The notes under the pieces are model-generated. The model had not been told where the DNA came from and ran no database searches. It saw only the letters and a list, made by a program, of their open reading frames with translations. 64,000 bases of DNA from Pseudanabaena sp. PCC 6802 (GTDB taxonomy: Bacteria; Cyanobacteriota; Cyanobacteriia; Pseudanabaenales; Pseudanabaenaceae): contig NZ_KB235914.1 of NCBI RefSeq assembly GCF_000332175.1, positions 1,309,966-1,373,965 on the forward strand, given 5' to 3'. Below are positions 9,451-13,282 of this stretch, piece by piece. The stretch's first letter is position 1; each line of letters starts with the position of its first letter. A program made the translations under genes and the position numbers.

Positions 9451-10407
9451 ATGAATAATAAACGTTTCATTGGGCTTAGTCCTGAACTCTATCAACATCC
9501 GTCCGATCGCAAGGCTTTAGCATCCCTCGAAAAAATGCCCGGATTATCCTTACTCTTGAAGAAGGTAAACGAGTACGGCATCGATCGCCTCCTCAGGATG
9601 CAAACCCTGGGAAGCGAGTTCAAAGTGACCTCTCGCAACTTCCCCAAGCTCTACGATGCCTTTATGGAGACGTGCAATATTTTATGCGTTAATCCATTGC
9701 CAGAATTATATCTCTTTCAAGGGACGGGACACATTCATACCTATGCCATTGGCGTAGAGAAGCCCATTGTCGGGGTGAACTTAGAGACAATGGAATGGTT
9801 AACGCCAGAGGAGTTGTGCTTTGCACTCGGTCACGAACTGATTCGGGTTAAAGGTGGATATATCAACTACCAACAAATTGGGCAAGTCATGCCCCTTGTG
9901 AAGGGACTGATTAGCAGTACGACTTTGGGTTTAGGCGGTATTGCCGCGAATGGGATAGAAGTTGCCCTACAGAACTGGATTGTGATGTCCAAATTTACAG
10001 CCGATCGCGCTGGTTTGTTTGCTTGTCAGGATATTGAGGTAGCAATCTCAGCTCTCATGAAATTAGGCGGACTGCCCGCAGAATATTTAACTGCGGATAC
10101 AATCGACGACTTTGAAGCCCAGGCTCGCAGCTTTATGACGACCGATCTGGACAATTTAGATCGCTTTACCCAGGTTTTCAGCTTCATGAAACTTCGTCAC
10201 CCCTGGACAGTAATGCGTATGGCCGAGCTATTTAAGTGGATCGATGCTGGCGAGTACAAATCGTTGCTGGAAACTGGCAAGCTGCCACAACCAGCTAAAG
10301 AGCCTGCTCAAACTTCCGCTTCATCCAATTCCCCCACTTCATCCAATTCGTCCAGTTCATCCAATTCATCCAATTCATCAGATTGGGATTTCCTGGCGAA
10401 TCTATAA
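9451..10407 (+). CDS. M48-like metallopeptidase homologue with degenerate zinc site
   Basis: 318 residues. Overall layout follows soluble M48 peptidases of cyanobacteria: an N-terminal helical segment, LYLFQGTGHIHTYAIG, then LTPEELCFALGHEL and later a SKFTADRAG segment. The catalytic HExxH reads H128-E129-L-I-R132, with the second His replaced by Arg. The third-ligand position in the usual ExxAD motif is K181 (SKFTADRAG). The protein is therefore probably not a standard zinc protease. The C-terminus (about 285-312) is a Ser/Asn tract encoded by a short tandem repeat. There is no signal peptide. It may act as a chaperone, scaffold or regulatory pseudoenzyme. Confidence 0.7.
   Translation: MNNKRFIGLSPELYQHPSDRKALASLEKMPGLSLLLKKVNEYGIDRLLRMQTLGSEFKVTSRNFPKLYDAFMETCNILCVNPLPELYLFQGTGHIHTYAIGVEKPIVGVNLETMEWLTPEELCFALGHELIRVKGGYINYQQIGQVMPLVKGLISSTTLGLGGIAANGIEVALQNWIVMSKFTADRAGLFACQDIEVAISALMKLGGLPAEYLTADTIDDFEAQARSFMTTDLDNLDRFTQVFSFMKLRHPWTVMRMAELFKWIDAGEYKSLLETGKLPQPAKEPAQTSASSNSPTSSNSSSSSNSSNSSDWDFLANL
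10321..10380 (+). repeat. In-gene tandem repeat (TCATCCAAT units)
   Basis: Short units of the type TCATCCAAT/TC recur about six times and encode the SSNS-rich C-terminal tail of the M48-like protein. The unit length (9 or 12 bases) preserves the frame, so copy-number changes would alter tail length without truncation. Confidence 0.7.
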
Positions 10408-10903: not shown

Positions 10904-12058
10904 CTAAAAATCAACGCCGCGTTTGAGATCTACACCCTTTTCGGCGTAATGCTTGTGACAGACCATTTCGCTATGCACGCTGGCTAGATCGAAATAAGCA
11001 GGCTGGTTGAGACATCGCCCCGTAATGATTACTTCCGTATCCTTGGGCTTACGTAGCAAGGCTTGGCAAATTGGATCGACTGGCAACAGGTCTAGATCGA
11101 CCGTGGGATTTAATTCATCTAAAATGACTGTCTTATAGAGGCCAGAGGCGATCGCCGCTTCGGCAATTTCCCAACACCGTTGTGCCTCGATAAAGTCGAT
11201 TTCCTGCTGCTGACCGCGCCAAACGATCGCATCGCGCCCGCAGCGTTGGTGATCGACGACATGTGGATAACTGCGGCTGAGTGCAGCGATCGCCGCATCC
11301 TCGGTATAGCCGGAGCCGCCTTTGAGCCACTGCACGATTAACACGCGATGCGATTGATCGCGGCTGATACCCGTACCAATTGCTTTGAGCGATCGACCCA
11401 ATGCCGCAGTACTTTTACCTTTCCCAGCGCCCGTATAAATCTCGATACCAGATATACCGTAAGCTTCGACATTGGGATGCTCGTGGGGGCGCATCTCGGA
11501 GTGAAGATCGGCGATATCTAGCAATGCTTGTGGCGCACCCCGACCTGTGGCAATTACCTCCAGATGTTCCGGTTTGCGCTTGAGGTCTTTGACGACGCGC
11601 TCTACGGACAGCAAACCCAGATCCAAAACGGGATTAATTTCATCTAAAACGATCACGGAATACAGCCCCGAGGCGATCGCGCCTTTCGCCACATCCCATC
11701 CCCGTTCCGCTTCGGCGCGATCGAATGCGGTAATCTGCTCGGCATCAAAGTATTCGGCTCTACCCGTGCGTACTTGATCGATCAGATGCGGAAAGCCCTG
11801 TTGCAACGCGGCGATCGCCGCGTCTTCAGCATATTCGCGTCCTGGCCCCTTGAGAAAGCGCAGTAGCAAGATCCGGGTCTCAGTAGGGTTGGAGGTTTCC
11901 GTCGCTGCCATACCCAAACCGAGCGATCGCAACACTACTCCCAACGCCGCCTGAGACTTACCTTTTCCCAAGCCATCATAGACCTGAATTTGCCCTATCG
12001 CCCGCTCTGGGCGCACCTGAGCAGTCATGATGCCTACAGCTGCCATAAGCTTACTCAA
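10904..12058 (-). CDS. cobO: Tandem-fused CobO/BtuR-like corrinoid adenosyltransferase
   Basis: 384 residues made of two homologous halves of about 190. Each half has a Walker A motif (VYDGLGKGKSQAALG; IYTGAGKGKSTAALG), then a LLRFLKGPGREY / IVQWLKGGSGYT strand, AAIASGLY, ILDEINPVLDLGLL / ILDELNPTVDLDLL, and EVIATGRG / EVIITGRC with a DL/ASxHSEM motif. CobO transfers the adenosyl group of ATP to Co(I) corrinoids in cobalamin synthesis or salvage and is normally a single-domain dimer of about 200 residues. Here the dimer seems built into one chain. The second half diverges more at its C-terminus. No cobalamin riboswitch is apparent upstream. Confidence 0.85.
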   Translation of the reverse strand: MSKLMAAVGIMTAQVRPERAIGQIQVYDGLGKGKSQAALGVVLRSLGLGMAATETSNPTETRILLLRFLKGPGREYAEDAAIAALQQGFPHLIDQVRTGRAEYFDAEQITAFDRAEAERGWDVAKGAIASGLYSVIVLDEINPVLDLGLLSVERVVKDLKRKPEHLEVIATGRGAPQALLDIADLHSEMRPHEHPNVEAYGISGIEIYTGAGKGKSTAALGRSLKAIGTGISRDQSHRVLIVQWLKGGSGYTEDAAIAALSRSYPHVVDHQRCGRDAIVWRGQQQEIDFIEAQRCWEIAEAAIASGLYKTVILDELNPTVDLDLLPVDPICQALLRKPKDTEVIITGRCLNQPAYFDLASVHSEMVCHKHYAEKGVDLKRGVDF

Positions 12059-12373: not shown

Positions 12374-13282
12374 ATGCCTGCCGTCTTTATCAACCCCAAA
12401 ACTGACTTTGCATTCAAAAAGATCTTTGGCTCCAAAGAAAGCAAAGATATTCTGATTAGCTTTCTCGACGCTATTCTCTACAACGAGCAAGATGCCATTC
12501 AAGATCTGGTGATTCTCGACCCTTATCAGGCACCCCGGATTAAGGGGATTAAAGACTCCTATCTCGATGTTAAAGCCACTCTGCAAGATGGCAAAACTGT
12601 AATTATTGAAATGCAGGTATTAAACGTTTTGGGGTTTGAAAAACGAGTGTTGTATAACGCCGCCAAAGCCTTCTCCATTCAGCTTGGCGTGGGAGAAGAC
12701 TACACTCTGCTCAACCCCGTAATTGCGTTGACGATTACTGACTTCGAAATGTTTGTCGGTAACGAGAGAATTATCTCCCGCTATCGGCTAAAGGAGAAAG
12801 ATGACTTAACTGACTACAGTGATGATATTGAGTTGGTTTTTGTGGAGCTACCAAAGTTTGAGAAAAGCTTGAACGAATTGGAGACTCTAATTGATAAGTG
12901 GCTGTATTTTCTTAAATGCGCTAATGAGCTGCGATCGGTGCCGCCTACAATGAAAGCGGTACCAGCACTTAACCACGCTTTTACTGTAGCGCAACAGAGC
13001 AAACTAAGCCGCAAGGAGCTGGAGATTTTGGAAAAGCGACAAATGTTTTTGCACGACAATCGCAATGCTATTCTCAAAGCTAAACAAGATGCGCTCCAGC
13101 AGGGAATTCAGCAGGGAATTCAGCAGGGAATTCAGCAGGGAATTCAGCAGGGAATTCAGCAGGGAGCATATCAAGAGAGGGTAGCGATCGCCCAGCAGTT
13201 ACTGGACGTACTCGATCCAGAGACGATTAGCCAGAAGACAGGACTGACTTTAGCAGAAATTCAGGCGCTGCGATCGCCGTAG
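12374..13282 (+). CDS. Rpn-family PD-(D/E)XK nuclease/transposase-like protein
   Basis: 302 residues. The N-terminal PD-(D/E)XK nuclease fold is shown by the opening FINPKTDFAFKKIFGS, D65 in SYLDVKATL and the E79-x-Q81 of VIIEMQV. These are typical of Rpn proteins (recombination-promoting nucleases, annotated PD-(D/E)XK transposase). The C-terminus has about six QQGI units encoded by 12-base tandem repeats, then a helix. Such proteins are abundant and mobile in cyanobacteria and are sometimes linked to RecA-independent recombination or phage defence. It stands alone between dispersed repeats. Catalytic residues look intact. Confidence 0.85.
   Translation: MPAVFINPKTDFAFKKIFGSKESKDILISFLDAILYNEQDAIQDLVILDPYQAPRIKGIKDSYLDVKATLQDGKTVIIEMQVLNVLGFEKRVLYNAAKAFSIQLGVGEDYTLLNPVIALTITDFEMFVGNERIISRYRLKEKDDLTDYSDDIELVFVELPKFEKSLNELETLIDKWLYFLKCANELRSVPPTMKAVPALNHAFTVAQQSKLSRKELEILEKRQMFLHDNRNAILKAKQDALQQGIQQGIQQGIQQGIQQGIQQGAYQERVAIAQQLLDVLDPETISQKTGLTLAEIQALRSP
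13097..13165 (+). repeat. 12-bp tandem repeat (CAGCAGGGAATT x5-6) in the Rpn gene
   Basis: Five identical CAGCAGGGAATT units plus a partial sixth encode QQGIQQGI... The identity of the units implies recent slippage. Twelve-base steps keep the frame. Confidence 0.9.

Follow-up and report, generated by a model that had tools for sequence, protein, structure and literature searches.

The gene at 9451–10407 of the window (the whole stretch of DNA that was analyzed, 64,000 nucleotides of Pseudanabaena sp. PCC 6802) was found to encode a homologue of the M48 zinc peptidases in which, judging from alignment, basic residues take the place of two of the three catalytic zinc ligands. Since the ligands are replaced, the acidic residues of the site are kept, homology to M48 is evident, the gene is under purifying selection, a C-terminal tail is conserved and an intact M48 paralogue occurs in every genome checked, the window protein is probably a retained, metal-free M48 pseudoprotease which would act by binding. 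The features of the gene are as follows.

9451–10407, forward strand: coding sequence of the putative M48-like pseudoprotease, 318 amino acids, above the cut-off for Pfam PF01435
9832–9846, forward strand: altered HExxH motif, H128-E129-L130-I131-R132, from the translation and the paralogue alignment
9991–9993, forward strand: K181 at the position of the third zinc ligand Glu, from the alignment with paralogues
10003–10005, forward strand: D185, an Asp four residues past the third-ligand position, invariant in 106 of 106 listed clade sequences
10198–10218, forward strand: H250-P251...R256, the HPx4R plug motif, with R256 conserved in the clade and H250 only in the window protein among those listed
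10320–10379, forward strand: 9-bp tandem repeat of 6.7 copies, encoding a Ser/Asn-rich linker
10381–10404, forward strand: DWDFLANL, the C-terminal W-x-F tail, a tail present in 105 of 106 listed clade sequences

The residues of the altered site could be read in the codons for H128 (cac, 9832–9834), E129 (gaa, 9835–9837) and R132 (cgg, 9844–9846), followed by K181 (aaa, 9991–9993) and D185 (gat, 10003–10005), the latter two within the stretch K-F-T-A-D-R-A-G. Alignment with the paralogue in the window's genome (L007; motifs HELGH...AELSSDRA) and 22 other intact paralogues placed R132 where HExxH has its second His and K181 where the third-ligand Glu stands. The window protein is without the HExxH zinc-binding helix, which reads HELIR, and without the third-ligand Glu of active M48 zinc peptidases. 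A sequence-only reading of this DNA had reported the loss of two zinc ligands, which is confirmed by these codons and their alignment to the ligand positions, and had left room for an alternative HExxH elsewhere in the fold; a search of the 318-amino-acid translation revealed no second HExxH.

Among 386 cyanobacterial genomes searched, the clade gene was present in 27, the window's own and 26 others. The 26 clade members were 51–72% identical to the window protein, and the next best match was 35% identical. In the window's own order, the gene was present in one of 38 genomes, that of the window; the occurrence is thus patchy, and the gene may have entered the window's lineage from another source. 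A scan of a named genome collection gave 112 relatives, the best 80 of which came from many genomes of Nostoc, Anabaena, Dolichospermum, Calothrix, and Tolypothrix, and also from Kamptonema, Microcoleus, Microseira, Limnofasciculus, Elainella, and an Oculatellaceae genome. The clade set comprised 106 sequences (26 plus the best 80 of the 112 relatives), of which 96 were distinct because some genomes are present in both collections. L003 and L005 were left out as duplicates, and L029, which contains an in-frame stop, was left out of the counts and trees. The stop of L029 (genome G233) is a TGA in a clade gene with its C-terminal tail codons intact and points either to recent pseudogenization or to an error in sequencing. 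The nearest relatives of the window gene among those listed, L008 and L057, showed the same states at both codons. An M48 protein of Nostoc flagelliforme (labelled htpX; PMC8973743) and two M48 proteins of Crocosphaera (PMC12265555) were considered as evidence of expression, and no tie of these proteins to the clade was established.

Two types of intact paralogues, A (L007-like) and B (L044-like), could be aligned with the clade at approximately 27–31% identity over approximately 270 amino acids with the motifs in register. Unlike the clade, both retained HExxH, Glu, and HP in every sequence read. Paralogue B was found in 26 and paralogue A in 25 of the 27 genomes with the clade gene, and the window's genome contained A and lacked B. 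Each of the 27 genomes had an intact motif set in one or more of its paralogues (read in 7 + 20). HExxH, Glu, and HP were retained in 23 of the 24 other sampled paralogues, the exception being L037 (1923–2867, genome G340). This separate paralogue outside the clade, approximately 35% identical, carries CExxR with the third-ligand Glu and, by its sequence, is a second lineage in which HExxH ligands have been lost. Its C-terminus contains a zinc-ribbon-like CxxC...CxxC pattern.

The window protein is identified as an M48 homologue on the basis of its homology to the intact paralogues, the structure matches being weak when taken alone. It scored 27.4 bits against Pfam Peptidase_M48 (PF01435; cut-off 20.3), and the best of three NCBIfam HtpX equivalog models gave 17.6 bits, below the cut-off of 369. 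AlphaFold models produced from 25 clade sequences and from 46 sequences including intact paralogues had pLDDT values of 79.3 and 84.5, respectively. In both models, the stretches 119–135, which contains HELIR, and 161–192, which contains K181, formed long helices. In the better model, mean pLDDT was above 90 for 51–140 and 181–230 and 86–90 for 141–180; finer blocks ranged over 92–98 within 111–140 and 86–96 within 161–190, and residues 285–318 remained below 50. M48 peptidases led the ranking of solved structures, namely 3c37 (Z 9.8, 4.8 Å, 178 aligned), BepA (Z 9.7), and ZMPSTE24 (Z 9.5), followed by BlaR1 (Z 9.1) and the HtpX domain (Z 7.6, 2.4 Å over 92), on a scale where values below 8, or below approximately 13 for mostly helical models, may reflect a common arrangement. 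Foldseek gave weak matches (best E 0.15 and 0.2), and the best hit of a single-sequence search for solved relatives was an unrelated protein at E 0.54. With a profile that included the intact paralogues, the motif helix was matched to the selecase HExxH (E 0.00014), and the same stretch of HtpX was covered. The sequence-only reading had called the fold preserved and had proposed structure prediction of the active site; homology places the protein in M48 and fold prediction is in line with this, with the motif and K181 stretches helical in the two models.

The helical hairpin of residues 138–192 was partly hydrophobic, with a mean hydropathy of 1.28 in the best 19-residue span, starting at 146. 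Together with a presumed likeness of paralogue B to the plant plastoglobule peptidase PGM48, this could indicate that the M48 fold serves only as the scaffold of a structural or lipid/membrane-associated protein with no link to proteolysis. Such a role appears unlikely, as the hydropathy is below that of intact paralogue B itself (2.18). For PGM48, an interaction with CCD4 and a lowering of CCD4 upon PGM48 overexpression are described in a review (PMC8702529).

Analysis of the ligand positions in the 106 listed clade sequences revealed R in 90 and H in 16 at position 132, and K in 59, R in 42, E in 4, and T in 1 at position 181, which was hence basic in 101. The joint states of 132/181 were distributed as R/K in 51, R/R in 39, H/K in 8, H/R in 3, H/E in 4, and H/T in 1, so that R132 was always paired with K or R at 181 and never occurred without a basic residue there. 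The homologue alignment which had been proposed as a check thus established the basic pair as a conserved feature of the clade. Position 128 was more variable, with H in 72, Y in 25, C in 7, and Q in 2 (34 non-His), and Glu129 and Asp185 were unchanged in all 106; Arg256 was present in 105, the remaining one having a gap. All three ligands, HExxH with the Glu, were held by four of the 106 listed members (L026, L028, L121, and L125). As these four hold the ligands in remodelled surroundings, some clade members may still be enzymes.

The surroundings of the site also differed from those of paralogues A and B. Most of the clade departed from the intact paralogues at 131 (Ala instead of Gly), 135 (Ser or Gly instead of Cys), 175 (Asn instead of Glu), and 178 (Met instead of Arg). 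The HExxH/E members, four in number, carry A131, S135, N175, and M178 and lack His250, and thus belong to the remodelled group. His250 corresponds to the HPx4R plug, which in BepA supplies a His as the fourth, regulatory zinc ligand and which marks the M48 family (PMC7950410). The window protein carries the full motif (H250, P251, and R256). Since His250 was found in none of the 104 other readable listed clade sequences (one more being truncated), L008 as the nearest relative among them, its presence in the window protein is more likely a coincidence than a retained function.

The same residues bear on the explanation that the protein is still a hydrolase with an altered or non-classical metal site, through weak metal binding by His128, Glu129, and His250 or through electrostatic catalysis by the basic residues. 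The constancy of Glu129 and Asp185 (106 of 106 listed) and of Arg256 (105, with one gap), the H128 and H250-P251...R256 retained in the window protein, and the four listed relatives with all three ligands are in line with it. However, with His250 missing from 104 of the 105 other listed sequences (the other one truncated) and His128 from 34 of 106, the clade has no common ligand set, and an Arg and a Lys in the pocket would be expected to repel a cation. Continued hydrolysis is therefore considered improbable for the window protein.

The order of ligand loss was followed on a careful tree of 65 rows with the ligand columns removed, which included 57 of the 106 listed clade sequences and 8 of the 24 others; L033 (truncated) and clade rows at least 93% identical to a kept row were left out. 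The deepest clade forks lacked resolution in this tree. Outside its two large groups, several lineages (L032, L093/L124, L030/L119, and L075/L081) showed HExxH or QExxH together with Lys or Arg at 181. The fewest changes needed on the tree were 11 at position 128, 4 at position 132, and 11 at position 181 by residue, or 3 when scored as basic or non-basic. Because H132 was combined with K or R at 181 in 11 of the 106 listed sequences and R132 occurred without a basic 181 in none, these states suggest that Glu181 was lost first and that His132 was then changed to Arg, perhaps more than once. The sequence-only reading had spoken of a coordinated loss; both sites are indeed basic across the clade, but the loss looks stepwise. 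The HExxH/E members L026, L028, L121, and L125 were nested within the Nostoc group of the careful tree, and it is possible that the zinc ligands were regained in one Nostoc sublineage or that they are a remnant of parallel losses. The AU test did not reject a tree in which the K/R rows were constrained to form one group (p-AU 0.089, and 0.122 with the Thr row added).

The clade gene is under purifying selection, and its retention, which the sequence-only reading had suggested, is thereby supported. The median dN/dS in the clade was 0.135 with a maximum of 0.31 (1197 pairs, dS 0.1–0.9), and the intact paralogues had a median of 0.110 (9 pairs). The protein would therefore combine the two marks of a pseudoprotease, catalytic residues that appear lost and a gene that is conserved. 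Invariance was observed at 48 of 282 aligned positions (105 listed sequences), including Glu129 and Asp185; as 47 other positions are equally invariant, the invariance of Glu129 supports a new role no more than moderately. A duplicate in decay and about to be lost would be consistent with the internal stop of L029 and the patchy distribution, yet it is very unlikely at a dN/dS of approximately 0.14, with the highest of 1197 pairs at 0.31, 48 of 282 positions invariant, and the basic pair kept over many genera. An error in the two codons, whether from sequencing, as the sequence-only reading had allowed for, or from assembly, can be dismissed because the ligand states recur across the clade, identically in many independent genomes and in L008 and L057.

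Behind a variable linker, the clade proteins finished in or near a W-x-F motif in 105 of the 106 listed sequences, the missing one being cut by a contig end. The commonest tail was EGWNFLTSW, found in 52 of the listed clade sequences, with variants in the rest. In the window gene, the 9-bp repeat of the linker (10320–10379) is perhaps variable in length between strains. Paralogue B resembles the clade in having a Trp-rich C-terminal peptide, and among its 11 listed tails GGWRNW occurred in 9 and GWWRNW in 1. Sharing of W-ending tails, unlike that of the window protein, with other proteins was considered and rejected. An exact DNA pattern with fixed spacing for such tails produced 29 hits in the 27 genomes. 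The clade gene accounted for 20, and the remaining 9 were as many as a reversed control pattern gave.

The window gene lies approximately 175 bp past a methyltransferase gene and is followed by a convergent cobalamin adenosyltransferase gene. The latter (10904–12058, reverse strand) encodes a CobA/CobO/BtuR adenosyltransferase with two matched domain stretches, apparently a tandem duplication, and a transposase of the PD-(D/E)XK nuclease family (PF12784) that contains a repeated stretch, QQGIQQGI, was noted at 12374–13282. Clustering of the open reading frames around 81 loci (80 named loci, the best 80 of 112, and the window) revealed no neighbour conserved across the clade. The commonest immediate neighbours were on the opposite strand, an upstream family at 30 and a downstream family at 27 of the 81 loci, all close Nostoc relatives. 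Same-strand neighbours occurred only in sublineages, with a directly upstream family at 5 of 81 loci (12–96 bp away) and a directly downstream family at 5 of 81. A response-regulator family, which may lump paralogues, was present, in differing arrangements, in the flanks of 34 of the 81 loci and absent around the window gene, and the methyltransferase family upstream of the window gene was present at 2 other loci among the 81. A conserved operon partner was thus rejected, the synteny being limited to sublineages. PADLOC gave no match for the window gene, and an anti-phage role was rejected on this ground.

For the preferred reading, a metal-free pseudoprotease acting by binding, a mechanism can be proposed. 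With their positive charge, residues 132 and 181 would occupy the pocket that zinc has left and form pairs with Glu129 and Asp185, by which the two active-site helices would be held together in a metal-free state. A peptide or a partner could then be captured in the substrate groove and stay uncleaved. The W-x-F tail, at the end of its flexible linker, may dock to a partner or fold back in a self-inhibitory manner. Most likely, the protein would modulate or scaffold either the intact M48 paralogues or the substrates of these paralogues. More tentatively, Arg132 and Lys/Arg181 could form a built-in cation that replaces zinc and is neutralized by Glu129 and Asp185, giving a metal-free binding protein, possibly with His132 changed to Arg repeatedly after the loss of Glu181 and with a return of the full zinc site in a single sublineage of Nostoc.

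HtpX, BepA/YfgC, Ste24/ZMPSTE24, and selecase share with the clade the catalytic Glu, the Asp of the DRA motif, and the Arg of HPx4R. The clade is unlike these M48 peptidases in the replacement of the second His by Arg and of the third-ligand Glu by Lys or Arg, in the W-x-F tail and, apart from the window protein, in the loss of the plug His among the listed sequences. Pseudoproteases as such are already known in several peptidase families and, in cyanobacteria, for the orthocaspases. The cyanobacterial pseudo-orthocaspases (PMC6426788) are conserved protease homologues with replaced catalytic residues; they are cysteine peptidase homologues that have lost the His-Cys dyad, whereas the clade has lost zinc ligands. 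The plastid FtsHi proteins are zinc metalloprotease homologues described (PMC8197885) as pseudo-proteases with an important function; they belong to FtsH (AAA+), in contrast to the M48 clade. No cyanobacterial M48 pseudoprotease group was described in the open-access literature among the matches listed. Living species show the states HExxH/E, HExxH/K, HExxR/K, and YExxR/K, by which the way a metal site gets lost becomes testable. The same states allow asking whether a salt-bridge cluster replaces the metal and whether a metal site can return.
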